64,000 bases of DNA from Nannochloropsis oceanica (taxonomy: Eukaryota > Sar > Eustigmatophyceae > Eustigmatales > Monodopsidaceae), in contig CP038133.1 in NCBI GenBank assembly GCA_004519485.1, positions 1,012,830 through 1,076,829 on the forward strand, given 5' to 3'. Positions 27,723 through 48,165 of the stretch are shown piece by piece. The stretch's first letter is position 1. Every line of letters begins with the position of its first letter. The notes under the pieces are model-generated. The model was given only the letters and a program-made list of their open reading frames with translations, made no database searches and had not been told where the DNA came from. Made by a program: the position numbers and the translations under genes.

Positions 27723-27839
27723 CTTTCACAGGATCGTGATTGTGAGAACGAAATCGCTTTCAGTGTGCGAACAAGTTGGCTTTTGCTGCGCGAAAATAGG
27801 TGCAGGCACCACGTGCAAGCAGCGATGAGATAAGTAATG

Positions 27840-29140
27840 CTTACTCTCCCGTGACTGTTTCTCCGCATGTTCTACTCATCAGCTTGATACCTATCTAAAA
27901 GTGAAAGGATATGGAAGGAAAAAGACAGAACTGATCAGAGGGATGACTGGTTTGGAGCCCTTCCGAAGATATGAGACGTTGTGAACAATATATTTACTCT
28001 CGCTTCGAGATAGGCTTTTTTGATCTATCAAGAGGACAAGCAATCAAAATAATGACAAAATTTTGAAAGTATTCTGCTGATCGGCGTGGCCTTCAGAAAA
28101 ATCGGGCATCCCAAAAGCCTAAATAGAATGCTCATTATATCGCAGCCCTTGATAAAAAAGAGACAAAAAATGGCAGTCAGGACAAAACGTGGAGGTTACC
28201 GACCATTCAAGAACCAAGTGCCAATCCAGACACAAGAAGACATGACATTGATGTTCCCTGCCTTCTCCCTGTATCGCAGATTGTCTGAGTCTTGGCGAAA
28301 TAAATGGCGGTGCCAAATAACATAAAGCGTACGGACTATACAAAGGCACTCTGCCACACCCACACAAAGTCCGAAAATTCTGAAAAGAGCCCTCTGCATT
28401 CAGGAGGGCGCTTGGTCAAGGGTGAGCGTGCAAGGTACTCAATTTTTTTTAATTTATTTTTATTTCCATTCTTTTGTTGATGTATATGGACTGTTTTTTT
28501 ATGTTCTTCCAAGAGGGCCGCGTTTGTAGTATGATCTATAATAGACACTACCGCGTGCCAGAACTTGGGCCATGCAGCCATAGTACTGACCTAAAAAGAA
28601 GCAATTAGGTGAATGACGCACTCTCGATGGAAACCATCCATTGATTGCACATTTCTAGCCAACGCCAAATTGGCTATCCAATGTAGCGCACTATTAGCGA
28701 ATGGAAGGGTGCAACCCATCATATTGAGGACAGTACTGAGATGGATGCAGAGTCGTTCACCGTTAATGTGAATACCATCATCCAATATAGGTATTTTGGA
28801 GTGATAGTAGTGCTCGTTGCTTGAGTGCCGCAGATCAGCGACAGAGGTGAAATAGCATTCCCGACGTAAACTTGTAAATAGACTATCAGGGCGCCAATAA
28901 GAACGCTACTATTAAAGGGAAAGGCCGTGACGTAGACTTCTTCATGATAACCCCGCTAAAGCGGGCGCTCGCTCCTGTCCTGCTTGCTAAAGTATCTTAA
29001 CGCCTCAACGTCAAAATTTGGTCGGAAAGCAAGATATAAATAGAAGGAAAATACCTCTCCAAATTCTGTCTCTCAAATTTGTAAATAATACTCTGAAGAT
29101 TATGCTCATGAGTGCCTGGAGTAATTGGCTGAGATTTGCC
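27840..29140. other. Unannotated AT-rich region
   Basis: About 1.3 kb of AT-rich DNA without a supportable gene. A short match to the family A terminus (CGGACTATACAAAGG at about 28,331) is the only repeat scrap seen. Confidence 0.4.
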
Positions 29141-29299
29141 GTTACTCTATAGATTTCACGATTTTGTCTCGCCTTCTCTCCCGCCTGAACATCAGAACGC
29201 ATGTGCTGCTTTTGAGCGAAGAAGGCAGTCCGACCCCGAGGCTCCTCTCACCATCCCTTTGCCAAAAGCACACTACGCACTTACTCACCATATCGATCA

Positions 29300-29855
29300 C
29301 TACCCAACGACAGGAAAGATGCCACCAAGATGTCACCAAGAGCATTGAACAACGGAAGAGAGGAGTGCGCAAGAACTCCCTTGTCTCCGAACCTACCGAG
29401 CCCTTCAATGTGATGGGAGAATGCAGGCTCACGGGCAGCTTCCAGGGGAATTTCCGCCACGAGGGATGCAAGCAGTGCACATTCAGGCTCAACCGCGAGA
29501 ACGGATAGGTCAAGTGCAGGAGGCCGAAAGCCCAAAGGGTGGAAGAGCCCCACGTAATTTTCAGAATGTCGTTTCCTGTCGAGAATAAAGGCGCTAACGG
29601 CCCCACGACGAGAAGATGACGATTAGCGCCATGGCGGATGCGATGGAGAAGAGCTTCTTCAAGGGAAGTTACACAGCTCAAACGTTCGCCCAGCAGTAGC
29701 AGAAGACTTATACTTCCGCCTTCATCAACCCCGACCAGACCAAGCAGCTCTTCTCTGCGCTGCAAGGTCGACCACCAGACCAATGTGCGAGGCACAATTG
29801 TGGCATTCAACGTCACGCACGTCAAGGACAGCGAGGCGGAGGAGGAGGAGGATTA
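29300..29855 (+). pseudogene. Broken coding remnant of unknown family
   Basis: Several stretches on this strand have protein-like composition (ECRLTGSFQGNFRHEGCKQC; DAMEKSFFKGSYTAQTF; VDHQTNVRGTIVAFNVTHV), but no single open frame holds them. Looks like a decayed gene. I recognise no family and do not reconstruct it. Confidence 0.35.
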
Positions 29856-29869
29856 AGGGGTGGACGGAT

Positions 29870-30990
29870 CTAGAGAGGGGTAGGGGTGCCTTGGCTAAAC
29901 CATCATGTAGGAGGATCAAAAGGAGGGAAGGGGGCAGAAGAGGAAATACAGATTGGGGCATATAAAACGGAGGTGAGCACATAAACAAACAAACGAAACG
30001 AATAACAACACGTAATCCCCAAACAAAAAACAAAAACTAAAGAGAGAACAACTGTAGAAATCAAGCAAGAGAAAGACGGACGCACAACAAAAAGAAGAAT
30101 GAGCGAAGGGCAGTGAGACTTCTTGAATTCGCTTCTTTCCCACCCTATTTCTTATTCAAAACCCTTTAGCTCTTAACAAGCCCGCGGCTGGGGCGCAGTC
30201 CCTCTTCGGGAAGGGAGTTTTGGGGGAGGAGATACCCTTTCCTCTAAGAAAGTGGATGGTAATTTATATGGAAAAGAAGAAAGCTAAGAATTTCTGGGTT
30301 TTCCTCCCCTTCCCTTCCCCCCCCCCCCTTATATTGAGCCTACTACCAAGCTTTTAGCCCGGAGACAGCCAGTAAACGCTGATACTCTTTGTTAATGCAC
30401 ACAAGTACGTGGCTACTCTGTCAAAAGAATAAAAACAGCGAATTGATACGTGAGCAGACACGAAGGGGTCTTGAGGGCAAGTGCACTTTGGAGAGCGGAC
30501 CAAGAAAGCGACTCGTGGTAGATGAGCGTCCAGGAGGGAGGGGGAAGGATAGGGACGGAAAGTGGCTAACGAATGGGCTAAACGAAGGAATGCCTTTGGG
30601 CCGAAAAACGGGTAAACAGTCCGGCGGTGAACTCGGTCTTTAGAATGTACCGCTGTCAAGGCGAAATATCTCTCCCCATGCTCAGTTTTACATGCACTCC
30701 TGACTCTTATTGGAGACCATGCATTCTTCAAGCTAATGAGGAGGCCTGTAGTGAAAAAGCAACCTGTGTGCAACAGAGACCTCATCCAGACATCTCCGTG
30801 ATACCAGCCTGTAGCCCTGATTCTAGGGACTCGGAAAAGTGCAAGCAACTGCGGCTAGCACGCCGGTTGCACGGATCCGAAGGGGGCCAAGTTATAATAT
30901 TTGATTTGAGAATCGAGTCTTGGGCATTACCTCACTATCGACCTGTGCCAGGAAGTCCGATCCCTCAACAGATAGTGTCGATTATGGCCC
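29870..30990. other. Unannotated subtelomeric stretch
   Basis: Moderate-length frames exist on both strands (up to 164 aa on the minus strand at 30,354-30,848) but none has a recognisable motif or convincing composition. Confidence 0.35.
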
Positions 30991-30999
30991 TGTGAATTT

Positions 31000-32159
31000 T
31001 TATAAACGTGAAAAGAGCGGATAGAGTTTTTCCAAAAAACTTGCAAGCACTAAAGTAGAAAGCGTTCCTGTAACCTCCCCGAGCGACATGGGCGTGTCAC
31101 ACATCCTATCCACGTGTCGTAGTTTGCACAGTGCAGGGTGCGCCAGAGCAGCGGCATCAAATACATATGAGGCCCTGACGCAGTCACCCGTCGAGAGGTA
31201 TCTGTCACGAATAAAACGCTTCTCAATGCCCGCACGTAGATGTTTACGACTCTCCCACCCTATCTCCGTGAGCTCATTTACCGGAACAAGCGTGTGGTTG
31301 TGCGGGAGGTTGCTTTCAGTGTCTCCCCCCGAGGCCTCAACGTCCACCCCTCTATCCTCCGGTTCCTCCTTCCCAGCCTCAATAGCAGGATTCACCACAA
31401 GCAGGGGCTGCTCCAAACATAGGTCGCTCGCAAGGAGCTCAGCAATGCCCAATACGAAGCAGAGCCCCGATGCGGGTGAATTGCTCTGCATATCCTTCAG
31501 CACAATGTTCACCGCACGGATCAAGGTATACAGCTCAAGTATGACCTGGTTCACTTTCCTCAGCTCCGTGTGCCTGCTCCGAGAATGATAAATCCTCAGA
31601 ATGGGCTTGTAATCCGTCAAAACTCGTCGCAAACATTCCTCCGCAGAACTCCACCGATTCATCGCAAAATTGACGAGCTTCAAAGCCTGACCATACATCT
31701 CGCGCTGCACCTCATCAAACAAAATTTTCATGGTGGTGGTTTTGGAAATGTGTTTGACTACATTCCGCACCTCCATCAAAATGTTTCTTGCCCCTCTCAT
31801 TTTCCATCCGTCCGTCCGTCCCTCTCTCCCTCCCTCCCTCCCTCCCACCCTCCCTCCCTCCCTCGCCTCCACTGTCCTTCGCCGTCGAGGTCTCTGGACT
31901 TGTTCCTTGTACGGGTGGTGCCGGTGTCAGAAGTTGTTTCCGCTGTGGCCATGGCACTGGCATCACTGTCGCTGGTGATGGAGCTGTCGTTATCATTAAT
32001 CTTGTCGTCCTCGACTTCGAGGTCGAAACCTTGGAAATCGTTTTCGTCCTCCTCCTGTTGTTCTTCGTCGTGATGGAGGAGATGGAGCTCCATCTCCTCT
32101 TCCTCCTCCTCATGAAAAGAGAGACCAGGTAGAAGAGCATTCTCGTCGGTCACTGACAT
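31000..32159 (-). CDS. Possible hAT-transposase-derived gene
   Basis: An acidic N-terminal frame starts at 32,159 (FHEEEEEEMELHLL) and a second frame covers about 31,800-31,000. They are separated by a GGGA tract (31,830-31,875) where the frame changes, either by an intron or by repeat-length drift. The second part includes ALKLVNFAMNRWSSAEECLR and KHLRAGIEKRFIRDRYL followed by a helical block (YVFDAAALAHPALCKLRHVD). The order recalls the C-terminal RNase H-like half of hAT transposases, but no BED finger and no clear catalytic triad are seen. Could be a domesticated or partial element, or an unrelated gene. Confidence 0.35.
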
Positions 32160-32196
32160 GACGCGTGCTATAGCTGTATGTGTGCGTGTGTGTGAG

Positions 32197-32200
32197 AGAG

Positions 32201-32236
<36 letters not shown>
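32197..32236. repeat. (GA)n dinucleotide repeat
   Basis: About 20 uninterrupted GA units. Confidence 0.9.
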
Positions 32237-32237
<1 letters not shown>

Positions 32238-32239
32238 GA

Positions 32240-33229
32240 GGGAGGAGGATCAGTCTCAGTCGGCGACTTTGTGGAACAAATAGAATTCATTGTTCACGAG
32301 GCGGCGTACTTGCGCGCCTGCAGACTTGCACAGACCATTAACCCACTTCGTGGCCACGGATTTATTTGTCTGACTTCATGCTAGAATCTGTCGTTGTGAC
32401 GAATTACTCCTGTCCGCTTCATGATGGTGCGCAGATTAAATACAGAGTGGTGAAGTAACTTCGTGAGGGTCCACAAATCATGTACGAAGTTACCTTCGTC
32501 ACTTTGTGCTGCCCACGATTTTGTGTACAAAGTGACGGCATAACTTCGTCCGCCGGCACAAAATGTGTACGGAGTGATGGATTACATCAAATATTGACGA
32601 ATTAGACAAAGTAACGCATAATTTCCTGGACAGGGCCTTACTCGTCAAAAATTCGTCGGACGTGTGATCATGACACGCGCGAAGGAGAGGGGGGAAGGAG
32701 GGGAAAGAAGAGAGAAAGACATGACGAAAAGGCCCTTAAACTTCACACAGGACGCCTCTTACGCATTGAATTGCACATATGGGTAATTTGATAAAAATTT
32801 GGATTTGTTTGGTGGCTTATTTTACATGTCAAAGAAAAGTCAGAGTCCCCCCCGTACTCTCGGGTTGGGGGGTTGAGGGGGGGTTAGGGGGGCCCCCGGA
32901 GAAAGGGGGACAAGAGGGATGACACAGGAGGGTGCAAAATCAACAGTATTGATCATTCTATTTCCTTTTCTTCTTCTTTCTCTTTATGCCTCGTCTACAG
33001 CATATTTTGTACCTGGTTACTCAGGTCCACCCGGGCTACCGAACTGGACGCGGGTCGTTTTTTTACTCGGGTCTATTATCCAGATCTGCCGGCACACATC
33101 TCTGCCCCCGTCAAACACGTCTCGCAACTTCATTCCCTCATCCTTCCACCACACAGCCATCTTCCTCCATAGCAGATTTTTCTCACATATTCCCACTTTT
33201 GCCAAACCCCTTCTGTTTAGATTGGCGAC
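32240..33229. other. Unannotated region with G-runs
   Basis: No supportable gene. Contains long C and G runs around 32,847-32,910. Confidence 0.35.
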
Positions 33230-34120
33230 CATGTCGGTAAGAATTTCACTGGAAGATTCCGCGGAAGTTTTGTCTAGACAATTGTGGACCCAAAAAGTTT
33301 GTTGTACTTCATCCTCTTCGTGGTGGCCTACAACAGCATTTAAAAAAACGAACTGGCTCGAGCGGGCCTCAAATCTCTGTTACCGTGATTGATAGGGAAG
33401 TCAATCGCGTAGATGAAAAGGTTGTCCTGATTACATCGTGGCCTTCATCAGGGGGTCACTTGATAGACTCAACTTGCAGACTTCTTTCACTGGCATAAGC
33501 TTGACGAGCTAGGGTACAAGGTCATGCTCTCGGTGCCAGAATGCCCATGCGCAGAAAGTGTACTTGAAACTGCACAACTGCTTCTTGGAAGTCATTTCAT
33601 TAATCTCCGGGAGCTTATACAAAGCGACTCCTGTTTTTCCGAGAAGTAATCCTTGTTCACCATGCGCCATCTAAGTTGTCCTCTTTGAGTCTCCCACAAA
33701 ATGTGGTGAATATTCTTCCAAAGGAATGGAACGACGGCATTACAAATAACGCCTACTACTTTTTCCTGACTCGCACCAGCACTAATGTGTATCGAATACT
33801 CGAGAACCATGGCGAGGTTGAACACTTATTTCGAGATCATGGGTTTTGGGTCATCGACCCAGAAACCTATTCAAACAGTGCTCTATTAAACACGCTAGGA
33901 ATATAGTAATAACCAACGGCTCAGCACTCTCCAGTCTTATTTCAGGCTTATTTATATATACACTTAAGTAGAATACTTTGTCTTGATTCCGCAGTGTTTC
34001 AACCGCTGTGGCGTCAGTCAGGGCGTCGGAAAGGGACCGTTCTTCCGATACTAATGAAAAGAAAGATTTTAAGAAGATCATCTGGAAAAATGCAGTGAGT
34101 CGATTCAATTTCACCTATGT
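33230..34120 (+). pseudogene. GT61-like glycosyltransferase remnant
   Basis: A 76-aa frame at 33,676-33,906 reads FFLTRTSTNVYRILENHGEV, then FRDHGFWVIDPETYS. This is the pattern of the GT61 (DUF563) C-terminal lobe: an Arg-rich strand, an N..E helix, then GF.V.DPE. Just downstream in another frame comes ARNIVITNGSALSSLI, matching the next GT61 motif, where an aliphatic strand leads to a (H/N)G(A/S)AL turn. The frame shift between the two parts at about 33,885-33,900 means the gene is broken. Upstream scraps (EVNRVDEKVVLITS; GGHLIDSTCRLL) may be earlier parts. Confidence 0.45.
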
Positions 34121-34383
34121 TGACGCATTTTAGAACCTTATAATAGATTTATTGCGGTGGTGGATAGGGATGTCATGAGCGAGAATGTGACGTTCGCCCA
34201 CACATTCCTTTTGTCAATTTAAACTGTTGGGGCTGCGAATATATACGATAGTGTCTCATCGTTTGCGTTGTATGATGAAATCATTAAGGTCCGCGGTTGT
34301 GGTTTGAAGGACTTATCGAGATCGTAGGTCGTAGGCAGGAGGTCGTGTACCATTCGAAGGGCGTCTTGTATTTGAAAGAGATT

Positions 34384-34495
34384 GACGTCATCGACCTTGA
34401 AGAAGCCTACCTATGCGATCAAAGAGGTACAGTGACACGTAACCGTATCTCACGTCATCGACCCTGAAGAAGCCTACCTATGCGATCAAAGAGAC
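34384..34495. repeat. Imperfect tandem duplication, about 70 bp period
   Basis: GACGTCATCGACC(T/C)TGAAGAAGCCTACCTATGCGATCAAAGAG occurs twice with a spacer, in the region of decayed coding sequence. The quoted unit is split here by the variable base. Confidence 0.7.
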
Positions 34496-34920
34496 ACCAG
34501 GATCGTGTTGCATGATCTCGACTTGGTGGCCCACATGGCGAGTATACGAAACCGACGCATCTTTTTTGCAGGATGTCTTTGTCGGTCGATTACCATAGCT
34601 ATATAGGCCTGCCAAACTCTAGCACTTTCGGGTGTTTCTGTATTTCTTGCTCGCGTTCATGGACCGCTAATTTAAGATACTAAACACTTTTGTTCGTCTG
34701 GCCGGTTCGATTTCAGATCTGTGCCGGACATGTTTTTGCAGTATTTTGATCATAAGCTGTCCCCCGCGCAAGAAATTCGAATTTTGACAGTGTCCCCATG
34801 TGTGTAGAGTGGAGGATATAAGAAAGCAACACAACATATCTTGAGATATCTCAAGACTATAGAAGACTAAATAGCTAACCTGTCCAAAGGCCCCCTTGGT
34901 TCTTTTGATTTGGTCATCAC

Positions 34921-35085
34921 TTGGCCCAGCATCAACACAGCATCAACCCAGCACCAGCCCAGATCAACCCAGCACCAGTCCAGCATCAACCCAGCACCAG
35001 CCCAGCATCAACCCAGCACCAGCCCAGCATCAACCCAGCACCAACCCAGCATCAACCCAGCACCAGCTCAGCATCAACACTTAAG
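34921..35085. repeat. 22-bp minisatellite built of two 11-mers
   Basis: Alternating CAGCATCAACC and CAGCACCAGCC units, about seven 22-bp periods. Frames through it give SINPAPAQHQP-type peptides in all three phases and are rejected as genes. Confidence 0.9.
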
Positions 35086-35251
35086 GGGCTGATTTACAGG
35101 TAAATCGGCCAAACCCTACTTATAGGGTAAAGCACAGCTAATACATGAGACTCTCACGCATAATTCTGTTTAATATCCTAATCTTAAACTTGTATAGATA
35201 AATTCGTAGCCTGTGCACCAAATTTCCACTTCTAGGCACACAATTATTTGA

Positions 35252-35430
35252 CGGACTATACAGGAAGTGATGTAAGTTTTTTATTGTTTTTATTTTTGGG
35301 GGTTTTGATCACCACTTTGGGCTTTGCCATCGGCATGAGGACATCCACTTCTATCATATTTTGAGCCCCAGAATAAGCCCGCCACGGATGACGGGTAGAT
35401 GCCGGCATCGGGCCACTGACGGTTCCGCGG
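35252..35430 (+). mobile_element. Foldback element family A, left half
   Basis: Starts with the full terminus CGGACTATACAGGAAGTGAT and continues through the T-rich block, GACATCCACTTCTATCATAT and GATGACGGGTAGATGCCGGC. The right arm is absent. Confidence 0.75.
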
Positions 35431-35759
35431 AATAAAACGGCAAAATATACGTGTTCGAAAGAAAGAACAACAATCTTCCCTTTTCCCATATCAAGTTCCG
35501 CCCGCGATCCATTAGTCACCATGACGGATGTAGGCATCACTTTTCTTTCTCGATTAAGAGGGGAGGGAGGCGGTGATTAGATCTGCATACGCTACGTGTG
35601 TTTCTTTTGTTAGATTTTGCGTAAATCAGTCACCAAGAGATAGGCGGTCACGTTTCCTATTGGTCGCAATAACGGATGTAGACATCACTTTTATTTTTTA
35701 ATACATAGTCGCCATAACGGATGTAGGTATCACTTTTATTTATTATACATAGTCGCCAT

Positions 35760-35795
35760 AGTGTTTTTGTTTTTGTTTTTGTTTTTGTTTTTTAA
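35760..35795. repeat. (TTTTTG)n short repeat
   Basis: About five TTTTTG units in AT-rich DNA upstream of the next gene. Confidence 0.8.
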
Positions 35796-35940
35796 ATTCA
35801 AGACTTATTATACCAATCGAATTATCTTATGACGTAGAATAAGGATGTAAAATAGCAGGTATTGTTTCGTAATTAAATTATGTGATATAAAAGAAAATAA
35901 GCCTCCTATCCTATAGACTGGTCACACATCAATATTTTCT

Positions 35941-37242
35941 ATGAACGTACACAGAATGAGGTATATTATATGGATATCACTGCAATATAATCTCACGGGA
36001 GCTCGAACTCTTTTCCATTGCACACCATGCCATATAGGTACGATGACCGTTAAAAGGCGCTGCACTATAAATTTCAAAAACTACTGGACTATAGAATTTA
36101 CTGCAAACCTATTACTGGCATCTGGGATCTTCCTGCTTTTGTATTTTTCAGATTGGCATAAGTCGTACTCAACAACGAGAAGCAACAGAGGGAGTGGACA
36201 TAAAAAAATATTTTCCAGCTACTTTCCTTATCCTATTGAAACAATCGTCTCGGTAAAAGTACATAACGACAAGTATTCTGTAAGGGACTTTCTTTGGTCT
36301 TGGCTGGCATTCTGGCCCCCCATATATGGACAAATCACATTCATAGTGAACTCTCAGAAGGCTGTATCGAATATAGATTCTTGTCTTGAAGGAGCACGGG
36401 TGAAACCCTTCATAAAATATTTGAATGACAGTGGATCTGCGGAACCAAAAACTTATTATAAGTTCATATCTGACTTATACACGAATGCTACTGTAATCGC
36501 ATTTTTTGATGATGATGCTTGTCTACGGGACCACGTGATCCCACTTGATCTATTTACTCCCGACAAGAAGATAATTGCTCGTGGTGTGTCTTGGGGAGCC
36601 GTTAATGACGAGTGGCTTGACTCATACGGTGCTCACAGCGCACTTTTCAACATCTCTAGCACGGATAATTACATGATCAATTTTCCAATCCTTGTCTGGC
36701 GAGATATGCTCTCTGACTTTCGAACCCATGTGAACCAATACGTACATGGCGTTAGCGATAATTCCATTGCATTGTTCCAGGACGCAATGAACAGCATCAT
36801 ATTACAGGATAATCATCGAACGTTCAAAGGTGTTGTATGTGAATTCTGCTTATTACTAAATTTTGCGCATGACAATCCGAAATGGAAGTCAAGATACCAG
36901 TTTGATGTATGGCCAACAAAACATCCTTTGTATTCGGCATCACAACACCACTTCAAAACATGCAGGAAACCTGAAGCTCTATGGGAGAGAGACAATGATA
37001 AATTTCTTCCAAATTTGGTGACAAGTGCAATCTTCCCATTTAGTTTTCATCCAGCATATGAGAAATTGGCCGATAGATATTATAATCATGCGTCTTTGCG
37101 CATCATACACGACATGATTTACGATCGTTCCCAAAAGCTACAACAATTTGCTAGTAACCATCCAATGTCAGACTTGTCGTGGTATACGAGGTGGAACGAT
37201 GATATTGCGGCAGTCTGGTATCGATGCTTACGCTCGGGTTAG
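35941..37242 (+). CDS. Type II membrane protein, putative glycosyltransferase with DDD motif
   Basis: Intronless, 433 aa, or about 399 aa from the second Met at 36,043, which I prefer because it sits close to the membrane segment (ANLLLASGIFLLLYF). After the anchor comes a GT-A-like fold: PIETIVSVKVHNDKYSVRDF, FIVNSQ, then VIAFFDDDACLRDHVIP (residues about 183-199 of the long form), where DDD would be the metal-binding DxD. Downstream there are SWGAVNDEW and many aromatic residues. Several NxS/T sites occur. I cannot assign a CAZy family. Its position next to a telomere and its size resemble the other transferase genes here. Confidence 0.6.
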   Translation: MNVHRMRYIIWISLQYNLTGARTLFHCTPCHIGTMTVKRRCTINFKNYWTIEFTANLLLASGIFLLLYFSDWHKSYSTTRSNRGSGHKKIFSSYFPYPIETIVSVKVHNDKYSVRDFLWSWLAFWPPIYGQITFIVNSQKAVSNIDSCLEGARVKPFIKYLNDSGSAEPKTYYKFISDLYTNATVIAFFDDDACLRDHVIPLDLFTPDKKIIARGVSWGAVNDEWLDSYGAHSALFNISSTDNYMINFPILVWRDMLSDFRTHVNQYVHGVSDNSIALFQDAMNSIILQDNHRTFKGVVCEFCLLLNFAHDNPKWKSRYQFDVWPTKHPLYSASQHHFKTCRKPEALWERDNDKFLPNLVTSAIFPFSFHPAYEKLADRYYNHASLRIIHDMIYDRSQKLQQFASNHPMSDLSWYTRWNDDIAAVWYRCLRSG

Positions 37243-38126
37243 CTATATGAATTTCATTTCCAGTCACTGAGTTATGTGTGGTGTACGCCTATGCCATTTT
37301 ACGACTTATTTTCAAGTTTTAGCAACCAAGGGCGCTTTAATCAAAGAAACAATGAGTTATCCCTTGTAGCCGCTCCCCAGTCACACTCTCCAACTTTAAA
37401 GTTATATTCCGAGGATATGTGTCATAAAGCATATTCATAGAATGTCCAAAAAGATGACATCTCTACCATCAAATCGTCAAATCCTTACGAATATTCCTTG
37501 TTTGTGTCATTTGGCAAGATCCCACTCGATCAAATTTATTCCCCGACAAGGCATTGCATCGCCCCTCAAGGCCCGGCTCTCCGTCCCCGCCGACTTCCGA
37601 GCGCTGTAAATCAGCCCCCAGAAGCCGGATTATACCACGCATTGAGCCTCATCAAAAACGCCTAGACCTTAACTCTCGTGACTCCATTGAATTCTCCAGG
37701 ACAGTTTAGAGTTGTTTGGCTTCAAGTTTCCTGATCGACAGTCATACATCCGATCCTCCTAGCCCCAAGACAAAATTTGAATAAGGCCCGTAATTGCAGA
37801 GTTAAACAATCTCTGAGGGAGCTCCATGAAGGGATGTTTGATAGTCTTACTATCAGGATGCAATAACTTTCATGAGTCCGCTGTATCCACAGACGGATCG
37901 CCTGCAAATTGAAGTGGACACCTGAAAAGTTTGCATCCGTCCCGACAATACTGGACATTCAGATGCGCCCACTGAGATGAGGGTTCTGTGATGCTTAAGG
38001 TCATCGGTGTCAGAGCTTCAAAGGAATCGGTCTTCATATCACCTTTAAGCATGCCTAAAATCGCCATCTTCATATCACCTTTAAGCATGCCTAAAATCGC
38101 CAGATACCGCTCGCGCAACCTCTCTG
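37243..38126. other. Telomere-proximal spacer
   Basis: No gene supported. A 35-nt direct duplication (CATATCACCTTTAAGCATGC and following) lies at about 38,032-38,102, immediately before the telomere array. Confidence 0.5.
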
Positions 38127-38511
38127 TTAGGATTAGGGTTAGGGTTAGGGTTAGGGTTAGGGTTAGGGTTAGGGTTAGGGTTAGGGTTAGGGTTAGGGTT
38201 AGGGTTAGGGTTAGGGTTAGGGTTAGGGTTAGGGTTAGGGTTAGGGTTAGGGTTAGGGTTAGGGTTAGGGTTAGGGTTAGGGTTAGGGTTAGGGTTAGGG
38301 TTAGGGTTAGGGTTAGGGTTAGGGTTAGGGTTAGGGTTAGGGTTAGGGTTAGGGTTAGGGTTAGGGTTAGGGTTAGGGTTAGGGTTAGGTTAGGGTTAGG
38401 GTTAGGGTTAGGGTTAGGGTTAGGGTTAGGGTTAGGGTTAGGGTTAGGTTAGGGTTAGGGTTAGGGTTAGGGTTAGGGTTAGGGTTAGGGTTAGGGTTAG
38501 GGTTAGGGTTA
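38127..38511 (+). repeat. Telomere array (TTAGGG)n, right chromosome end polarity
   Basis: About 64 units with a degenerate first unit and two TTAGG variants (about 38,387 and 38,447). The G-rich strand runs 5'->3' toward the N-gap, as at a genuine 3' chromosome end. Confidence 0.97.
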
Positions 38512-38611
38512 NNNNNNNNNNNNNNNNNNNNNNNNNNNNNNNNNNNNNNNNNNNNNNNNNNNNNNNNNNNNNNNNNNNNNNNNNNNNNNNNNNNNNNNNN
38601 NNNNNNNNNNN
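38512..38611. other. 100-N assembly gap between opposed telomeres
   Basis: Exactly 100 N, the usual placeholder for a gap of unknown size. It is flanked by TTAGGG on the left and CCCTAA on the right, so it probably joins two chromosome ends. Confidence 0.97.
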
Positions 38612-38869
38612 CCTAACCCTAACCCTAACCCTAACCCTAACCCTAACCCTAACCCTAACCCTAACCCTAACCCTAACCCTAACCCTAACCCTAACCCTAA
38701 CCCTAACCCTAACCCTAACCCTAACCCTAACCCTAACCCTAACCCTAACCCTAACCCTAACCCTAACCCTAACCCTAACCCTAACCCTAACCCTAACCCT
38801 AACCCTAACCCTAACCCTAACCCTAACCCTAACCCTAACCCTAACCCTAACCCTAACCCTAACCCTAAC
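38612..38869 (-). repeat. Telomere array (CCCTAA)n, left chromosome end polarity
   Basis: About 43 near-perfect CCCTAA units. This is the expected form at the 5' start of a chromosome. Confidence 0.97.
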
Positions 38870-38879
38870 AAGAAGAGGA

Positions 38880-39245
38880 GGGCAGGGTTGATTGGCGGCG
38901 ACGCATCACAGACGTGGACTTGCGTGCCTCGGAAGCGCGGGAGCCGAGAATTGAAAACGTGTGGAAGGAAGTGATAACGGGGAATAGGGGCCCGGGTGGG
39001 GCAGTGGATGAGAGCGACAAGACGAAGGTATTGTAGCTGGAGAAGCGTCAGAGAACCATTGCGGACCTCATATAGAAGCTGCAGGAGGAGACTGGCAGTT
39101 ATACGCGGCATTGGCACGTGTATCGAGAGCAGGACACTGGCCCCATGATCTCGTACGCATGGGCCAGGGCGAAATTGGATGAGTATTTTGATTGGTGCGA
39201 GGGGAAGGGCAACAAAGTGGACATTGCGAAAAATTGCAGTGGACC
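38880..39245 (+). pseudogene. Broken coding remnant next to the telomere
   Basis: One frame looks coding in pieces (DVDLRASEAREPRIENVWKE; ISYAWARAKLDEYFDWCEGK) but is interrupted. Family unknown. It ends where the 239-bp satellite begins. Confidence 0.35.
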
Positions 39246-39249
39246 ACAA

Positions 39250-39850
39250 GCCTTGACCTTGGGAACCAAAAGCCATAGCCTTAGGAACCAAGTGCCTTAG
39301 CCTTGGGAACCAAACTTCCTAGCACCCATATTTCACTCCTGAATCATCACAATGAAGAACATTGAAGGGCATATCTCACTCCTGGACATCACCATACAGT
39401 CCTTTTAGATCTTTAGACAAAGACCTAAGCCTTGGGAACCAAAAGCCTTGGCCATGGGAACCAAAAGCCTTAGCCTTGGGAACCAAAAGCCTTGACCTTG
39501 GGAACCAAAAGCCATAGCCTTAGGAACCAAGTGCCTAAGCCTTGGGAACCAAACTTCCTAGCACCCATATTTCACTCCTGAATCATCACAATGAAGAACA
39601 TTGAAGGGCATATCTCACTCCTGGACATCACCATACAGCCCTTTTAGATCTTTAGACAAAGACCTAAGCCTTGGGAACCAAAACCCTTGGCCATGGGAAC
39701 CAAAAGCCTTAACCTTGGGAACCAAAAGCCTTGACCTTGGGAACCAAAAGCCATAGCCTTAGGAACCAAGTGCCTAAGCCTTGGGAACCAAAAGCCTTGG
39801 CCATGGGAACCAAAAGCCTTAGCCTTGGGAACCACAAGCCTTGTTTTTCC
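39250..39850. repeat. 239-bp subtelomeric satellite with CCTTGGGAACCAAAAG subunits
   Basis: Copies start at 39,251, 39,490 and 39,729 (period 239). Each holds several CCTTGGGAACCAAA(A)G subunits and a unique middle (CACTCCTGAATCATCACAAT and following). The third copy is partial. Confidence 0.9.
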
Positions 39851-40315
39851 CGCTGATTTTTGTCCTGAGTGGAGTGATGAGCAATGATCGTCATGGGCGC
39901 ACTTCGACCGCGCTCGGTCAGGCCTGGCCAGCGGGAGAAACCGTCCCTCAAGAAGTGCGCGAGCGCATTGAGCGCCCCCCCAAGGATGCGCCTTAATATA
40001 TACAACATAGGGTGGTGAAAATGAGGAAATACAATACAGGGCTTGATAGTGAGCATCAAATAGCTTATTTTCATTTGAGGTCATTTTCTTCCTCTGATTT
40101 GGATGAGAAAAGCTCAGCGCCCCTCGCAGCGCCCCGGGGGCATATCTCACTCCTAAGCGCCCCCTCCAAAGGGATTTATTTTCCATTAAATAGGCCTGAC
40201 ACTACCTATAGTTCCACTAACACTACTTTCAGGAAATGTTCGATTCTGGGCTCTTCCTTAATTTTTGAGCTAATTTCTTGGGACACTCCTGACAGATATC
40301 AAAGAGATACTCTTA

Positions 40316-41593
40316 TCAAATTTTGAATTGGACGTCGCAAAGACTATTTAAAAATATTCTCGCCAATTCACCGTATACCCACGGGGGAAAGTGAACGTGG
40401 TCTTCGGATAGATCGAAAACAGGCTCCGAAATTCGAAATGCATCTATTATATGGACATCGGAAGCCAGAAGTGTCGATAGCGCCATATCTCTAAACATTT
40501 GATACCTAAAATTATTTCGCGCGATCGCCAACTTTTGGGGGACAGTCTTGAATGGATTAACTGCGTTGGAGACTCGAAACTGGACCCTCGTTTGATTAAG
40601 TTTGAGGCGCTGTGCCCGATCGCTTAATGCATGCAAGCTTACCTCTAAATAGCTTGAACCTTTAAGATACTCACTGTGTAGACCACAAGATACACTGATG
40701 AATTGTCCGGAGCGATCATGTCCTAAGGAGTCAAAGAATGCGGTGAAATTACATCCGCAGTCCCATTGGCAGGTGTTGACAAAGTGTATATTGCCACATT
40801 GCGATGTCATCGTCGTTTTTTCCAAAATTGGGGTCGTGCTGAAAATTGCGGAACATATGTGGTCGAACAATCGTCGGCTCTCAGAGGTCCCGACAATCCA
40901 TATGTTTTTGAATTGAGCAGCGTGGTAGCAAGACAGATTAAAGTCCCTGGAGAGTCCACGAACGATATGTTTTTCCCACATAATTGAATCACCACGCTGC
41001 ATGCCATTCATGCCATCCTTAGCCATACTTGCAGCGATTTGTATCTGATCAATAACAGACGCGTTGATCGCCACAATTGTGGGGTGATACAGAATGGTGT
41101 CATTCTTTACCCATTCCACCTCTTGCAAGAGCTCGTCGGGTAGCACGTTAGAGTAGAGCGTGAGCAACGCCTGGGTGATCTTCTCCATCGGTACCCGCCA
41201 ATTAATTTTGTTGGGCTTGACAATCTCTGCTGCCTGTCGATGACCGCTCTCAACATTAATCAAAATCACGCTTGCGATGAACCCTTGACAATTTCCACTA
41301 TGTTCAAGGAAACCTGATAATGGTCCAGTCTGTATGAGCGTCAAATTGCACGGTAGGTGTGAAATTGTTGGCCATAATTGAATGTATGCAGGTTCGAGTA
41401 CTCCGGGGGAAATTAAAGCTGATCCCAGCTGTTCGAAGGCACGATAATCAGAATGTGTGATGGATATGGAACCTTCCATCCAGACCGTCATGAAATACAT
41501 TCCGATGCATGCAAGGACCAGATGACGAAGGATATATCGACTAGAAAGAAATTCACAAAATTTCTTGACTTCGACGGGGATATGAGATATCAT
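40316..41593 (-). CDS. Type II membrane SGNH/PC-esterase-like protein
   Basis: Intronless, 425 aa, with a membrane anchor at residues about 22-40 (LRHLVLACIGMYFMTVW). The lumenal domain has a nucleophile-elbow candidate, IWIVGTSESRRLFDH (Ser about residue 237), in the place of the GDS motif of plant TBL/CASD1-type acyltransferases and esterases. The C-terminus has SEDHVHFPPWVYGEL (about residue 400), matching the DxxH catalytic dyad followed by an aromatic stretch. In known families this fold adds or removes O-acetyl groups on polysaccharides or sialic acids. Cys-rich segments (CQWDCGC) and N-glycosylation sites fit a Golgi-lumen protein. Function is inferred from two short motifs only. Confidence 0.55.
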   Translation of the reverse strand: MISHIPVEVKKFCEFLSSRYILRHLVLACIGMYFMTVWMEGSISITHSDYRAFEQLGSALISPGVLEPAYIQLWPTISHLPCNLTLIQTGPLSGFLEHSGNCQGFIASVILINVESGHRQAAEIVKPNKINWRVPMEKITQALLTLYSNVLPDELLQEVEWVKNDTILYHPTIVAINASVIDQIQIAASMAKDGMNGMQRGDSIMWEKHIVRGLSRDFNLSCYHAAQFKNIWIVGTSESRRLFDHICSAIFSTTPILEKTTMTSQCGNIHFVNTCQWDCGCNFTAFFDSLGHDRSGQFISVSCGLHSEYLKGSSYLEVSLHALSDRAQRLKLNQTRVQFRVSNAVNPFKTVPQKLAIARNNFRYQMFRDMALSTLLASDVHIIDAFRISEPVFDLSEDHVHFPPWVYGELARIFLNSLCDVQFKI

Positions 41594-41704
41594 GGAAATA
41601 TTATCAAACCAATTTGAAGAATAGTGGTTTCAGCAAAATTGTCTGTAGGGGGGATGGTAGATCAATGATTAGGCAGAGGAGGGCTGGTGGCTAATGTGGT
41701 AAAT

Positions 41705-42111
41705 CTATATGTAGGAGGGGTGGAACTTGGACCAAGTTCCTCCATTCCTATCCTTCCACAACGCAACAAAGTCAACCAAATAGCCAAAGTTACTTCGAAG
41801 GAAAGCAATGTTTTATTCTTTCTACGGTATTTATGCCTTTTTTTTTTGGGATCATCTTTGGTCGCTTGATCGCCCAAAAAAAGAAAAGAAAGAAAACGTC
41901 GGGGTCGGAGAAAGTCAGGACAAAAGAGAAGAGGTCGGATGAAGCGGGGGGGAAATAAAAGATGACCTCGAATAAGGATGTATGAATACCGTAGAAAGAA
42001 GAAAACATTGTGTTCCTTGAAAGTAGATTTGGCTATTTGGTTGACTTTGTTGCGTTGTGGAAGGATCGGAACGGAGGAACTTGGTCCAAGTTCCACCCGT
42101 CCTACATATAG
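41705..42111. mobile_element. Foldback element family B, complete copy
   Basis: 407 bp with long inverted arms. The left end CTATATGTAGGAGGGGTGG is mirrored by CCCGTCCTACATATAG at the right. Inner arm sequence (AACTTGGTCCAAGTTCC, ACTTTGTTGCGTTGTGGAAG) is also inverted. No coding capacity, so a non-autonomous MITE-like element. Confidence 0.8.
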
Positions 42112-42467
42112 GGGTTTTAATCACCATTACGAGCCTTGCCACCGGCATAAAGACATCTACCTCTATCATATTTTGAGCACCAAAATAAGCCCGCCCCGCA
42201 TGACGGGGAAGCTGCTGGCATCAGTCCCACTCGTTGGCGCGGGATGACCGGCAGCCAAAGGAGCGGCTTGTTTAGAGCGGGATGGCGTCATCGTCCCGCG
42301 CCAACGAGTGGGACTGGTGCCGGCAGCTTCCCCGTCATGCGGGGCGGGCTTATATTTGGTGCTCAAAATATGATAGAAGGAGATGTCACTATGCCTGTGA
42401 CAAGGCTTGTATTGGTGATTAAAAAGTAAAAAGAGCAAAAAACTAACACAACTTTCTGTATAGTCCG
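42112..42467 (-). mobile_element. Foldback element family A, copy lacking one terminus
   Basis: Contains both inverted arms and the central loop in the opposite orientation to the 48,873 copy. It ends with TTTCTGTATAGTCCG. The other terminus (about 70 nt) is missing where it abuts the family B copy, so the two elements were joined by a rearrangement or nested insertion. Confidence 0.8.
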
Positions 42468-42674
42468 TGGGTCGGAGAAACAGGAGAAACCAGAAGGTCG
42501 GATGAGGCCAGGAAGACACCAAAGATGATCTCAAAGAACGAGGCATAAATACCGTAGAAAGAAGAAAACATTGCTTTCCTTCGAAGGAGCTTTGGCTATT
42601 TGGTTGACTTTGTGGCGTTGTGGAAGGATCGGAACGGAGGAACTTGGTCCAAGTTCCACGCCTCCTACATATAG
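42468..42674. mobile_element. Foldback element family B, right half
   Basis: Starts inside family B sequence (GGGTCGGAGAAA) and ends with the terminus CCTCCTACATATAG. The left half is missing beside the family A copy. Confidence 0.75.
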
Positions 42675-42830
42675 AAAAATGTTTAGGAGCAGTCTCGGCC
42701 AGCATTTAAATTCCTCTCTTATAATTTGATTGCAAAGGTAGAGTGCTCCGCGGTGATGTTCACGATGATGCTAGAATCGTCGTTATCCTGATAAATCAGC
42801 CAAACCTAACCTTACCTGTAGTGATTCTAT

Positions 42831-44191
42831 TTACACTTTAAGATGTTTCGATGACGACTTGCTGTACATAATTTTATATGCCCAGATCGTGTCGATGAGA
42901 TTTTGTGGTAACGGATTTGCACCACGGTTGCAAAAGGTATTATACTGAGTTAGTGAAGAGTAATACTCGAGTGGGTCTGAGAGTGTACAGTTCAAGATGG
43001 TCTGATCCCTTCCCATCAGCATTTCTTCGATTCCATCTCCGTTGACATAAAATATCTTAGGTGTTGCATAGGGCTGCCACAGCCACTGGGCAAAGACGTA
43101 GTGAGATGTACACGTCACGGTAACTTCATCATTTCTGTTTGGAGTTCCCACTTCTGAAGGTATTAAAGGATTCAGAGAAACATTGACGCCTGCAAATACG
43201 AGAGCCTGCCAGTATAATTCTTTGTCTCCATATATATACTTGGTAGTGCTGTTAAATAGGTCTGGTGCCAAAATCTTCTCCAGTACCAACATTGCATCTC
43301 TGTTCAATGTCTTGTTGAATAAGACAACGGCACTTTCTCCATAATCGTAGCTCCACCTCGTCATAGGAGGCAACTTCTCTAAAAAGGGTGTTTGATTTCT
43401 AGGCGAATTGAAATGCCTCGAAATATTGCGTAGTTGTTGTCGGTAACTCCTCATATATTTAGCCGGTCGCTGGGTCCGACGATCTGCAAATAAGTATGCA
43501 CCTTGTTTTGAATAATCAGGGGTGTTCATGAGCACAAAGGGGTTGTCCGTGATTATGACATCTAGATCCAACATCAAAACATTCTCGAATGGTGCGGCTA
43601 GTAGCGCTGCTGGTTTACAAAAAAAGCCTTGAAAGTTTTGTAATGGTGCAGTCCCGAATTCAGATGCGTACGTCCCCTGGTACCAAGTTTCCAAGCTCTG
43701 TATCTGCACCCCGGGAATGGTTTTCAATTGTTTCCGCCATAGTTTGGCACCAATCGTTTCTCGAAGCTCATCTGCATGGTATATAATGAAGGACTCGTTC
43801 ACCATACCATATAGGGTACGCAGCGTTGATATCTCCGGTTGGAAGAAAGGGATAGATTATGAGCTCGCAAGAAAGGGCAAGTGAAGAAGCACAGATTTTT
43901 CCTCACCTGTATCCATGCAAGGCGAAGCGATTTGGCATCGTACGCACACAGAACGACCCCTCGATTGGCTTTATCCTTGACTTCGGCCGCCATGATGACA
44001 GGTCTTGCAGAAGGAGACGTGACAGTCAGGGTATTCATGAACAACTTCAATCCGACAGTGAACCAACAACACCCAACGATCACTCCTGCCATATGATAGG
44101 CGCGCCGGGGTATTGTATGCACTTTCATGAAATATGTGTCCTGGTATGTACAGTGGTGAGCAGCACGTGTATGGTTATCGTGAAAACCCAA
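42831..44191 (-). CDS. GT71/Mnn1-like glycosyltransferase
   Basis: Two exons: 44191-43907 and 43832-42831; the intron starts GTGAGG and ends CGGAG. About 428 aa, or about 407 aa from a second Met at 44,128 that sits nearer the membrane anchor (GVIVGCCWFTVGLKLFM). The junction restores a typical Mnn1 entry, SLRLAWIQ-ISTLRTLYGMV. The core has FCKPAALLAAPFENVLMLDL with DLD as the DxD motif, then VIITDNPFVLM. GESAVVLFNK and IYGDKELYWQAL further match alpha-1,3-mannosyltransferases of the MNN1 family. The likely site is the Golgi and the likely role is mannosylation of glycoproteins or wall glycans; specificity is inferred. Confidence 0.8.
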
Positions 44192-44329
44192 GAAGAAGGA
44201 TATGGACAGTAAAAGCAGGCAATTGTCGTGGTATAGTATTCATTTTGGGAATTTTTATCACAGAAAGCGATAATATAAAATGTAATAAGTGTATGAACGA
44301 TGGCAAAGGGGTTCAAGCTTATCTATAGT

Positions 44330-45845
44330 ATTAATAGATTTTTGTCCGGCTACTGTATGTCATCCTTTGTGATCTTATCACTAAGATGACTTTCGTAGTC
44401 GTGCATGGTTCCCACCGAGGACGACTATGGCGACTAGTTGTCGTGCGTGATTCCCATTGAGTACGATTACAATGACATTTTGTCGCGCATAATGGAAGGA
44501 CAAGATGACCAACGATTTACCTATCTATATAATACCGGTAGTCTTCCGACGTGTGGGGATACCAGACTTACTATACTTTGGGTTTTTTTTAAAAAAAAAA
44601 CCGTTTATGGCAAAGCGACTGGACTTCTGTCTGGGCGATAGCGAAGTCAAACCCACAAGGAAATAAGGAGATTGTTAAAGTTTAATTTCACACAGGAGTT
44701 CACGAACGAGACACCAGCAAAAAACAATAAAATTTCTTTTCAAGTCACATCTCTATCCCTTCCTCCTTTTTTCTTTCCTCCTTGTTCTTCCTTCCCTTTT
44801 TCAATCCGCCACCTATGCTTAATCATTCATCGCCATCATCATTATCATCATGATCGTCGTCAATCTCATCGTCATTAGCAACATCGTAAGCTCCATACCT
44901 CGTTATTTCCATCGCCTATTAATCGTTCTCTTCTGCTTCGGCGTCGTCCTCCTTCTCCCCCTCCTTCGCCACCGACCCTCTAACCCTCATCCAAATGAAA
45001 GATCTTTTAAAATTCCTCCTTGTTATGTGTTCGTTATGACATGGCCTCTTTCGCCTCCGTAGCAGTCAGCCCCATGAAGTCAGAGAGGGGCGTCTTTGTG
45101 TAGTCTTGGGAGGTCCTCTGTGGCGGTCGGCTGGATGCCGAAAAGTCCTCTTCCTCTAACTCCTCACCTTCATCCCCCCCACCCCTCTGTTGAAATGAAA
45201 CCCCTCTAACATAACAATGATTGCATTTTTCTTATCTTCAACTGGCGTAGCGTGCTCTTTGGTGTCCGCCATCTTATTCACTCACTTCATTGTCAGTAGG
45301 CCAGGGTCATCAAAGAGATAGGAGGGGTTTTCACAGTCTCCAGTGTAATGGTACATGTCCTTCACAAAATGCTTAATCATATCCTCGCGCAGAGGCCTCC
45401 TGCTCTTTGTTCCGTCCTCTGTCCAAGCAGCTCCACAGCCGTGTGACCGCGGGGCAGCACAGGCCCCGCTTCTGCTTCCTCCATGTCCCCTATCTCATTC
45501 TTCCTCTTATGACGGCGGGGTCAATCACACTAAGAGAATCACAGCCTTTGTTTTTTGTGGCGTGTAATCGTAGTTAGACAAAAAATATGAATAATTGCGA
45601 AGGATCTGAGTTGTTGTCGATTGCGGAATACTGAATAGTCGTCCCTTGATGATTGCTGCACGACTGCGACGACTTATCGTCGTTGCTTGCTAAAGATCAT
45701 GTGTGGTGTGGGAGAATCGACGAGCATTTACCACACTCCGCTTTTGGCTGTTAGCTAGCCTTATAATCATCTTCTCCTTCATTTTCTTCCAACTTCAAGT
45801 CAATTGTCCCTCTTGGAGATCATGCACAACCGCAACTCATAGGGG
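44330..45845. other. Unannotated subtelomeric spacer
   Basis: No supportable gene. Repeated CGACTA/GTCGT-containing motifs near 44,395-44,490 and 45,570-45,690 hint at decayed dispersed repeats. Confidence 0.4.
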
Positions 45846-45849
45846 AAGT

Positions 45850-47127
45850 CTACGAGAATCTTGTCAAATCTACCTCTATTGCGCCTTCGACCTTTTCAAT
45901 ATCGTAAAAAATCCGCTGGGCGTAGGTGGTTAAAAGACAACCAGCATATCCGTTGATCGCTTCCTCTCGTAAAGTCTCCAAAACAAATTGACGGCCATGT
46001 TCACCAATCCTCTTGGCCATCCTCGGATGCTCTCTCATCCATTTGATATTATCTTCAAGGTCAGACAGGTCGCTTTTAAAGGGCACGTAGTGTACAAACG
46101 GCTTCAGTGACGAATACCAGAATTCCATATAGTTGGACTCCTCCTTTAGCACCGTCGAGCCTAGTGCAAAAAGGAAGGGCAGTCGTGCCGCCCAACCATT
46201 TCCATCCATGTTGATTATGTACTTGTAACGTCCGAATTCCAACATCGATATTGCATCCCCCACGGCAGATGCGTTCAAAATGTCTTTTCTGGCATCTTCT
46301 GTAACCTGAGTAAAGCCACTAAAACGAGCATCAATAAGTTCAGAATGCTGTTGCGAAAATAGAACAAGTTGAGATCTCGGAAAATTTCTCCAATTTTCTA
46401 GCGTATAAGCCCCTCCTGTTTGTGTTCCACGCCAGATTGCTATATCTAGCTTCTTCTCCCAAGGTATGGCCGCCATCTCCTCTACCTCTTTGCTTTCCAT
46501 CCAGTCGTATATAGGTTGAGTAAAATTTTGCGTGAACATGGTCAAGTAAGTGAACGGTAGATCCAGATGACCATCTGTGGTCTGAAAAGAGAATATTGGA
46601 GCTGGAAAATCATCGTAAGCCTTGGTTTCTTCAGCAGGTTCATCCTTCAAGTTTACGATTATGTCAAAATCTGGAAAGTCGTAGTGAGATAACAGTATAG
46701 CGAATCGCCTGTATATGGCGTCGAGGTAGAGGCTGTGTTTAAAGGTACAGTCGTTCAGAATGCTGTAAAGCGAATGATTTTTTTTAAAATGTTGAAGTCT
46801 TATGTAATTTTCACAGGGATACATTTCTTTCAACAACTGCACACTCTCCTGTGTTATATGATCCCAATTTTGGAGAAAACGAAAGGCCTCATCGCGCCAA
46901 ATAGGCCACGTCGTAAGGCAGGGGTCACCCTTATGGTGTCCCAAGAAATAAGGTGGTAAAGTATCACGGAGCTCCACCGTGGACGGAGTCAAATTGTGAG
47001 ATCCATGCGATATGATAGAGTTAGGACCGGGAAACAATAAGCATTTATCTGCCAAGATTAATAGAAGACATGCAAGTCCCACTCCAGCGATAAGGCGTTT
47101 ATGGAGAAGATACGTCTTTTCCAGCAT
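45850..47127 (-). CDS. GT90 (CAP10/POGLUT-like) glycosyltransferase
   Basis: Intact, intronless, 425 aa. Residues about 10-28 form the signal anchor (RLIAGVGLACLLLILAD). The CAP10 domain is clear: IAIWRGTQTGG (about residue 230), LIDARFSGFTQ, then EFGRYKYIINMDGNGWAARL (about residues 298-317), GSTVLKEESNYMEFWY, and LKPFVHYVPFKSDLSDLEDN with the closing helix EHPRMAKRIGEHG. These match GT90 enzymes: protein O-glucosyl/xylosyltransferases in animals, and xylosyltransferases for fungal capsule. The C-terminus lacks an ER-retention KDEL, and the anchor predicts a Golgi type II protein. Acceptor unknown. Confidence 0.88.
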   Translation of the reverse strand: MLEKTYLLHKRLIAGVGLACLLLILADKCLLFPGPNSIISHGSHNLTPSTVELRDTLPPYFLGHHKGDPCLTTWPIWRDEAFRFLQNWDHITQESVQLLKEMYPCENYIRLQHFKKNHSLYSILNDCTFKHSLYLDAIYRRFAILLSHYDFPDFDIIVNLKDEPAEETKAYDDFPAPIFSFQTTDGHLDLPFTYLTMFTQNFTQPIYDWMESKEVEEMAAIPWEKKLDIAIWRGTQTGGAYTLENWRNFPRSQLVLFSQQHSELIDARFSGFTQVTEDARKDILNASAVGDAISMLEFGRYKYIINMDGNGWAARLPFLFALGSTVLKEESNYMEFWYSSLKPFVHYVPFKSDLSDLEDNIKWMREHPRMAKRIGEHGRQFVLETLREEAINGYAGCLLTTYAQRIFYDIEKVEGAIEVDLTRFS

Positions 47128-47293
47128 TCCATTGAAGGAATTTTAGCGAGGTAGTATGATGCAAGTCCGTAGATGCTATTATTTGATTGTTAAAGTTGGT
47201 GATCAAATGAATTCGTTTCGACAAAAAAGCTAACGCGCAAAGGAAAGTGTATTTATGCAATTCAACGGTGCAGGGGATTACTAGCCACCTGAA

Positions 47294-47310
47294 TATAATA
47301 ACCCTAACCC
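47294..47310 (-). repeat. Two-unit CCCTAA scrap
   Basis: ACCCTAACCCTAAA in otherwise unrelated AT-rich DNA; an interstitial telomere trace. Confidence 0.6.
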
Positions 47311-48028
47311 TAAATTTTGAGGTAAGAGTAGTATTAAAATATTGAGTCTATCTTTGGTATAAGCTACCGAGCTACCGAAGACAAGTGATAACAAAAGGAC
47401 ATGAATGGTCAATAATTCCCCCCCAAAAAGGTTTAATCTAAGTATCTAAAGTATTAATCGATTTTTGTTGTCGCGCACTTAAAACGATTTCAGCGTTCTT
47501 CTCCTTCCACAAACCACTGAAGCACATGCCCGCTTAGCAACACAAATGAAGAAGAATACAATGCACAAAACTCTATGTAGTCTTTGTGACGTCGTCCCGT
47601 GGTTTGTGTGGTTTTGAGCTTCCCGTCCCTCAATTTGGAGTGTTCCGCGGCCCGCGGGTCCACAAATACTAATCGTTTCCCCTCCAACTCCCCTCGAGTC
47701 AACTTCCTCTTCTGTCAACCCCTCACAAATGAAATGAGCGTGATAAGAGCGCACACCCATTTGCTGACCATGTACTGAGTGGCATTGCTCCCTTTTCTGC
47801 CCTTCTCCATGTTTATCGAGTGGGGGATGGGGGGGTGGAGGAGGGAGGGTGGAGAGTGGTATTGATGATGACGAAATTCCAAATATGGCCATTTGCCATG
47901 GGCCATCTCCCAGACCGCTCCCCATTGCAACACAGCTCAAAGCCCTTGTCCTACTCCCCCACCCTTACTCACAACATAGCACCGCCATGCCTGTTGTACA
48001 CCAGGGGAATGAATGGTGGTCAAAACAA

Positions 48029-48165
48029 CGGACTATACAAAAGGTTATGTAAGTTTTTGGCTCTTTTTACTTCTTTGGTGTTTTAATAACCATTATGAGC
48101 CTTGCCACATGCATTGTGACATCTCCTTCTATAATATTTTGAGCACCAAAATAAGCATGACGGGG
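48029..48165 (+). mobile_element. Foldback element family A, left half cut at telomere repeats
   Basis: Begins CGGACTATACAAAAGGTTAT and keeps the left arm to GCATGACGGGG, with a short loss in the CCCGCCCCG segment. At 48,166 it is replaced by TTAGGG units. Confidence 0.75.

Follow-up and report, generated by a model that had tools for sequence, protein, structure and literature searches.

At human 2q13, a natural interstitial telomeric fusion site, TTAGGG and CCCTAA repeats are found in a head-to-head arrangement. Natural telomeric fusions are gapless, and their repeat arrays are usually short and degenerate. The TTAGGG unit is also the telomere motif of eustigmatophytes related to Nannochloropsis oceanica (PMC8570151). 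In Nannochloropsis gaditana CCMP1894, an optical map was used to define 30 chromosomal scaffolds, of which 27 carry both telomeres and 3 carry one (PMC5814478). Among assembly artefacts, inversions have been described as common in Hi-C scaffolds when the contigs are short (PMC6719893).

In the present work, we analyzed a head-to-head pair of telomeric arrays in N. oceanica. The window, a stretch of 64,000 nucleotides, corresponds to C7:1012830-1076829 in a genome of 32 records and 29.26 Mb, where C7 is one of the scaffolds. We infer that this genome is the Hi-C/LACHESIS assembly of N. oceanica described by Guo et al. 2019 (PMC6610115) and that it is identical to the LAMB2011 assembly, GCA_004519485, of PMC6883114. 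According to PMC6610115, Canu assembly of PacBio reads with a mean length of 4.3 kb gave 129 contigs, which were joined by Hi-C with LACHESIS, a program that orients neighbors by Hi-C link likelihood; the cluster number was set to 30 following N. gaditana. The result is described as 30 pseudochromosomes for the nucleus and one each for the plastid and the mitochondrion, with the number of nuclear pseudochromosomes given as 29 in one place and 30 in another. The sequence analyzed here totals 29,264,788 nucleotides, 38,485 less than the 29,303,273 printed in that report (PMC6610115). Two records, of 117,556 and 38,068 bp, have no telomeric ends, which fits the two organelles. Strain IMET1 is likewise said to have 30 chromosomes in a subsequent Hi-C study (PMC10436460). 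The stem 'telomer' is absent from the main text (supplements aside) of PMC6610115, a literature search found nothing that paired LAMB2011 with 'telomere', and no report of the assembly problem described below was found in the literature searched.

The junction and its surroundings

The two arrays face each other across the gap (Table 1). The left array opens with TTAGGA at 38127 and continues with TTAGGG units to 38511, with one 5-base unit, TTAGG, near 38389 and another near 38448. TRF assigns 64.7 copies with 98% matches to the left array and 43.0 copies with 100% matches to the right one. Such arrays do not arise by chance, given that the whole genome contains the 24-mer (TTAGGG)4 801 times on one strand and 588 times on the other, but the reversed control 0 times. 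Both are tandem repeats with the G-strand directed outward that abut a contig end, as is typical of telomeres. A natural fusion would show unbroken sequence through both arrays; instead, they are separated by 100 N, a fixed-size gap that recurs elsewhere in the assembly, as in a misjoin. With PacBio reads of a mean length of 4.3 kb (PMC6610115) and arrays shorter than 400 bp, reads could have crossed both arrays if these were continuous. The location, the 100-N gap and the polarity reported in the sequence-only reading of this DNA, with the G-rich strand entering the gap from the left and the C-rich strand leaving it rightward, are all correct.

Table 1. Features of the window around the telomeric junction (window coordinates) and telomere-bearing scaffolds of the assembly
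Feature	Position or scaffolds	Strand	Evidence or remarks
Left subtelomere (extent approximate)	18122..38121		GC 0.43 over the 5 kb nearest the array and 0.46 over the nearest 10 kb
Alpha-1,4-glycosyltransferase-like gene	26808-27722		Pfam Gb3_synth; left of junction
CTCTG motif	38122..38126	+	Inner edge of left array; commonest telomere junction motif of the genome (16/41)
Telomere array (TTAGGG)n, one chromosome end	38127..38511	+	Outward rightward into the gap; direct reading, TRF
100-N scaffold gap	38512..38611		Placeholder, no physical link; direct reading
Telomere array (CCCTAA)n, facing chromosome end	38612..38869	-	G-strand outward leftward into the gap; direct reading, TRF
Right subtelomere (extent approximate)	38870..48869		GC 0.46; tandem repeat, foldback repeats, glycosyltransferase-like genes
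239-bp tandem repeat	39243-39792		Right subtelomere
Foldback-like elements	41705-42112, 42103-42448, 48890-49268		Inverted arms of roughly 75-150 bp
Mannosyltransferase-like gene	42831-43805		Pfam Mannosyl_trans3; right of junction
GT90-like gene	45850-47127		Pfam Glyco_transf_90; right of junction
Scaffolds with a telomere at both ends	C1, C9		
Scaffolds with a telomere at one end	C4, C11, C15, C20, C21, C23, C24, C26, C27, C28, C29, C30		
Head-to-head pairs	C2, C3, C6, C7, C8, C10, C12, C14, C17, C19		Ten pairs (20 arrays)
One-sided internal telomere against an N gap	C5, C13, C16, C18, C25		

The surroundings of the junction are subtelomeric in character. A BLAST comparison of the window with 30 telomere-bearing and 17 non-telomeric loci (166 kb) gave 25 matches, every one of them in 6 of the 30 telomere-bearing loci and none in the non-telomeric ones. 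In particular, the foldback-like elements of the right flank are shared with the telomere-bearing loci of C2, C8, C11 and C30 and, among the loci compared, were matched nowhere but at other telomere-bearing loci. Pfam matches were obtained for three of the six ORFs tested near the junction, and glycosyltransferase-like genes are present on either side. A comparison of the left flank (24.6 kb) with the right flank (21.4 kb) yielded matches no longer than 186 columns, with 75-100% identity and in both orientations; the flanks thus share short repeats only and do not represent one end assembled twice.

The GC content over 10 kb on each side of the junction is 0.46, below that of all 20 scaffold starts (0.504-0.602). 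Over this length, the 4 telomeric and the 16 other scaffold starts are not separated (p = 0.38), so that GC over 10 kb alone is not a subtelomere marker. The GC content of the first 2 kb does separate the scaffold starts (telomeric, 0.46-0.50; others, 0.51-0.63), and purine/pyrimidine tract content gave no clean separation of telomeric from other starts. The outer ends of C7 have a GC content of 0.556 and 0.565, compared with 0.46 for the junction flanks.

A gapless miniature head-to-head tract is located at 48163-48226, where TTAGGG units are followed by CCCTAA units 10 bp apart. AGAG lies directly to its right, so that the G-strand of this tract begins after CTCTG. The tract is perhaps a healed or fused break.

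Telomeres throughout the assembly

For the genome-wide census, we used six patterns at the inner edge of the array, one per phase, and inspected the two ends of each of the 32 records. All 1389 words were placed: 275+235 in scaffold-end stretches, 474+313 at internal loci and 52+40 in the window. The census gives 41 arrays that adjoin contig ends, of which 16 terminate scaffolds and 25 border internal N gaps; among them, the right array of C3 is degenerate. An N gap is present at all 15 internal telomere-bearing gaps and consists of 100 N in the 14 that were read whole; the C5 gap was read to the sixth N only, with its far side outside the count, and is classified as one-sided by what was read. 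The remaining interstitial tracts in the examined loci span 18-48 bp and adjoin no gap. The internal arrays closely resemble those at scaffold ends both in length (median 270 bp, n=25, versus 259.5 bp, n=16; p = 0.98, with arrays taken as independent) and in the frequency of CTCTG at the inner junction (10/25 and 6/16, respectively).

Of the 30 scaffolds, 12 carry two arrays, 17 carry one and a single scaffold carries none, and three or four are never found. Taking the arrays as independent, a maximum of two or fewer under random allocation of the 41 arrays has p = 1.5e-4 if the allocation is uniform and 3e-5 if it follows scaffold length and, for the head-to-head class as set after the data were seen, the difference in telomeric outer ends (0/20 versus 16/40 in the other nuclear scaffolds) has p = 4e-4. 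With one chromosome per scaffold and a recovery of 41 out of 60 telomeres, 14 scaffolds would be expected to have two arrays, 13 to have one and 3 to have none. Ten of the 12 two-telomere scaffolds are head-to-head, two have both telomeres outward and none is mixed. All 15 internal telomere gaps are located at 71-95% of the scaffold length, that is, in the last 29% and never near the start; this late position may be an output convention. At C13:833000-833372, a 100-N gap seems, by eye, to cut a CDK-like kinase gene, with a telomere directly across the gap. The Pfam matches of the kinase fragment to Pkinase have E values of no better than 0.11 and 0.28, and the gap appears to be another misjoin.

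In 16 of the 41 telomeres, the CTCTG motif found at the edge of the left array directly precedes the first repeat, whereas 94 other offsets have on average 0.043 occurrences each, with a maximum of 1; the pattern was noticed after the fact, and the offset control is strong. The motif is also found in 8 of the 21 short interstitial arrays of the examined loci, some of which are mutual copies. This pattern hints that the telomeres of N. oceanica might be seeded at CTCTG as a fixed non-telomeric motif, a reading that we regard as tentative. Under such a mechanism, the telomerase RNA would continue past the template as 5'-CCCUAACAGAG-3', 3' ends in CTCTG would anneal to it and be extended, and a putative telomerase RNA locus would hold CTAACCCTAACAGAG outside arrays. 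Chromosome healing would then leave a readable signature. A search of the literature on the telomerase RNA template region returned no Nannochloropsis among the matches listed. Alternatively, CTCTG could derive from a shared repeat end, such as a transposon end, an origin with which the membership of some interstitial copies in one repeat family agrees but which is at odds with the different flanks that precede CTCTG in different telomeres. The loci C8:394289, C19:368483 and C29:192303 contain one and the same short telomere-like unit, in which TTAGGG units are followed by CTAACATCTA; apparently, this is a small foldback repeat family.

Origin of the junction

The junction is almost certainly a scaffolding artefact, and the arrays joined in C7 are probably the two ends of one chromosome that was scaffolded inside out. 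The left contig ends in a natural telomere and the right contig begins with another, and LACHESIS set them adjacent with 100 N between them. Hi-C clustering would have grouped the contigs correctly, but with the telomeric ends turned to face each other, so that the scaffold would be inside out, with interior breaks at C7:1 and C7:1310085, its outer ends. The orientation error might have been driven by telomere-telomere Hi-C contacts; telomeres in contact within the nucleus yield Hi-C links, and telomere-telomere foci are seen in a yeast Hi-C map (PMC13148404). The case for an origin in the same chromosome is built on counts. Whole chromosomes joined to each other would bring outer telomeres with them, and the absence of any among the 20 outer ends argues against two whole chromosomes. 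Furthermore, splitting the ten head-to-head N. oceanica scaffolds would yield 40 units, compared with the 30 chromosomal scaffolds of N. gaditana, so that one chromosome per group, with ten of these turned inside out, is the economical reading.

The outer scaffold ends themselves have the appearance of interior breaks. In addition to being non-telomeric in all head-to-head scaffolds, they include the right end of C7, where a SKI2-like helicase gene (PDB SKI2W, 2.5e-51; DSHCT, 9.3e-55) is represented by its 3' part only, without the RecA1 part. GGGA-type repeats are found at several outer scaffold ends and may be a cause of weak links. An inside-out C7 is predicted to continue from its end into its start, and this prediction was examined. 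The C7 start lies in a minisatellite, and the gene located there is, by eye, on the minus strand, as expected, has a start codon and runs toward the scaffold end. We spliced this first gene by hand and compared it with the SKI2 N-terminus. The match is weak: of 1000 shuffles, 8 scored as high for the human sequence, 9 for that of Arabidopsis and 58 for that of yeast, the hhalign probability was 3%, and equally high scores were reached by 26 and 65 of 1500 length-matched ORF controls and by 7 and 28 of 1658 single ORFs. In a profile search, the spliced protein ranks fifth of 1659 and one of its exons ranks third; the gene has no match in Pfam or PDB. A RecA1 query of the genome gave 10 matches, on C9, C14, C2, C4 and C17. 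The best of these, on C9, was rejected as the SKI2 half because, by eye, it belongs to a complete MTR4-like gene, and two matches on C14 were rejected because they belong to a more distant helicase; this query and the examination of these three matches yielded no second RecA1 domain clearly assignable to SKI2 elsewhere in the genome. This result and the weak likeness at the C7 start fit, without proving, a gap at that point.

In other scaffolds, partial gene matches (Aminotran_5, PreP_C and adh_short), all below curated cut-offs, occur at the start of C17 and at each outer end of C2. The outer ends of C2, and by eye those of C17, cut different genes, hence the ends cannot abut directly, and sequence must be missing or misplaced between them. 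With PreP as the query, a single match was obtained, at 795 kb of C2 (E 0.0014); the fragment at the C2 end went undetected, which indicates that the query is insensitive. Biotin carboxylase gave 11 matches, on C4, C5, C7 and C20, and CDK gave 32; none of these three queries of the genome placed a missing gene half or yielded a clear partner. The names PreP, aminotransferase, dehydrogenase and kinase denote partial Pfam matches below curated cut-offs, and the carboxylase at the C17 end was named by eye, without a Pfam match.

That both arrays are real chromosome ends joined by a scaffolder, as proposed in the sequence-only reading, is upheld by the 100-N placeholder, the terminal-type array lengths, the repeats common to other telomere loci and the similar arrangement in 10 scaffolds. 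The same reading proposed that two chromosome ends were most likely concatenated and that the flanking genes should therefore not be treated as linked. In favor of a junction of two different chromosomes, or of arms of two, at their telomeres, both arrays are genuine ends, Hi-C maps can show clustering between the telomeres of different chromosomes, as in the yeast foci (PMC13148404), and the LACHESIS clustering was fixed at 30 groups (PMC6610115). Nevertheless, we consider this explanation unlikely because three or more arrays are never found in one scaffold and because two whole chromosomes would carry outer telomeres, which are found at 0/20 ends; a pairwise swap of arms between chromosomes, a possible variant, would leave these counts unchanged. 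Thus, with at most two telomeres in any of the 30 scaffolds, no telomeric outer ends and 30 chromosomal scaffolds in N. gaditana, a concatenation of two different chromosomes with loss of linkage is probably the wrong reading. The genes on either side of the junction are not neighbors, but they probably share a chromosome, and their chromosome-scale linkage is probably real.

A natural end-to-end fusion that left a head-to-head interstitial array is highly improbable. The short gapless tract within the window demonstrates a similar arrangement on a small scale and could be cited in its favor; the arrays at the junction, however, are parted by a placeholder gap rather than by sequence, and the same arrangement recurs in 10/30 scaffolds, whose arrays are as long as terminal ones and whose outer ends lack telomeres. 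The repeats are also 98-100% regular on the two sides of the placeholder. Even harder to credit is the assembly of the same telomere twice in opposite orientation, as a palindrome or a haplotype duplicate: the short repeats common to both flanks would be compatible with such duplication, but the flank comparison reveals no long inverted copy, and the Pfam-matched genes differ between the two sides.

Inside-out scaffolding of a single chromosome, the explanation favored here, would make subtelomeric genes appear internal and interior genes appear terminal. Gene order, distance to telomeres, synteny and 3D-genome work would be affected on 10/30 scaffolds. Given that GCA_004519485 served as the scaffolding reference for two further strains (PMC6883114), the inverted order may have been inherited by these assemblies.

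Comparison with known systems

The C7 junction shares the head-to-head arrangement with fusions of the human 2q13 type but differs from them in the 100-N gap and in the near-perfect arrays. With N. gaditana CCMP1894, the N. oceanica assembly has in common the number of 30 chromosomal scaffolds; the passage of the N. gaditana report on telomeres counts them per chromosomal scaffold and names no internal ones, whereas 25 of the 41 telomeres are internal in N. oceanica (PMC5814478). The junction also resembles the errors of LACHESIS-type Hi-C scaffolding, in which contigs are grouped but their order or orientation is wrong and a fixed N spacer is inserted. The difference is that the error observed here is patterned, with the telomeric ends facing each other in 10 of the 12 two-telomere scaffolds.
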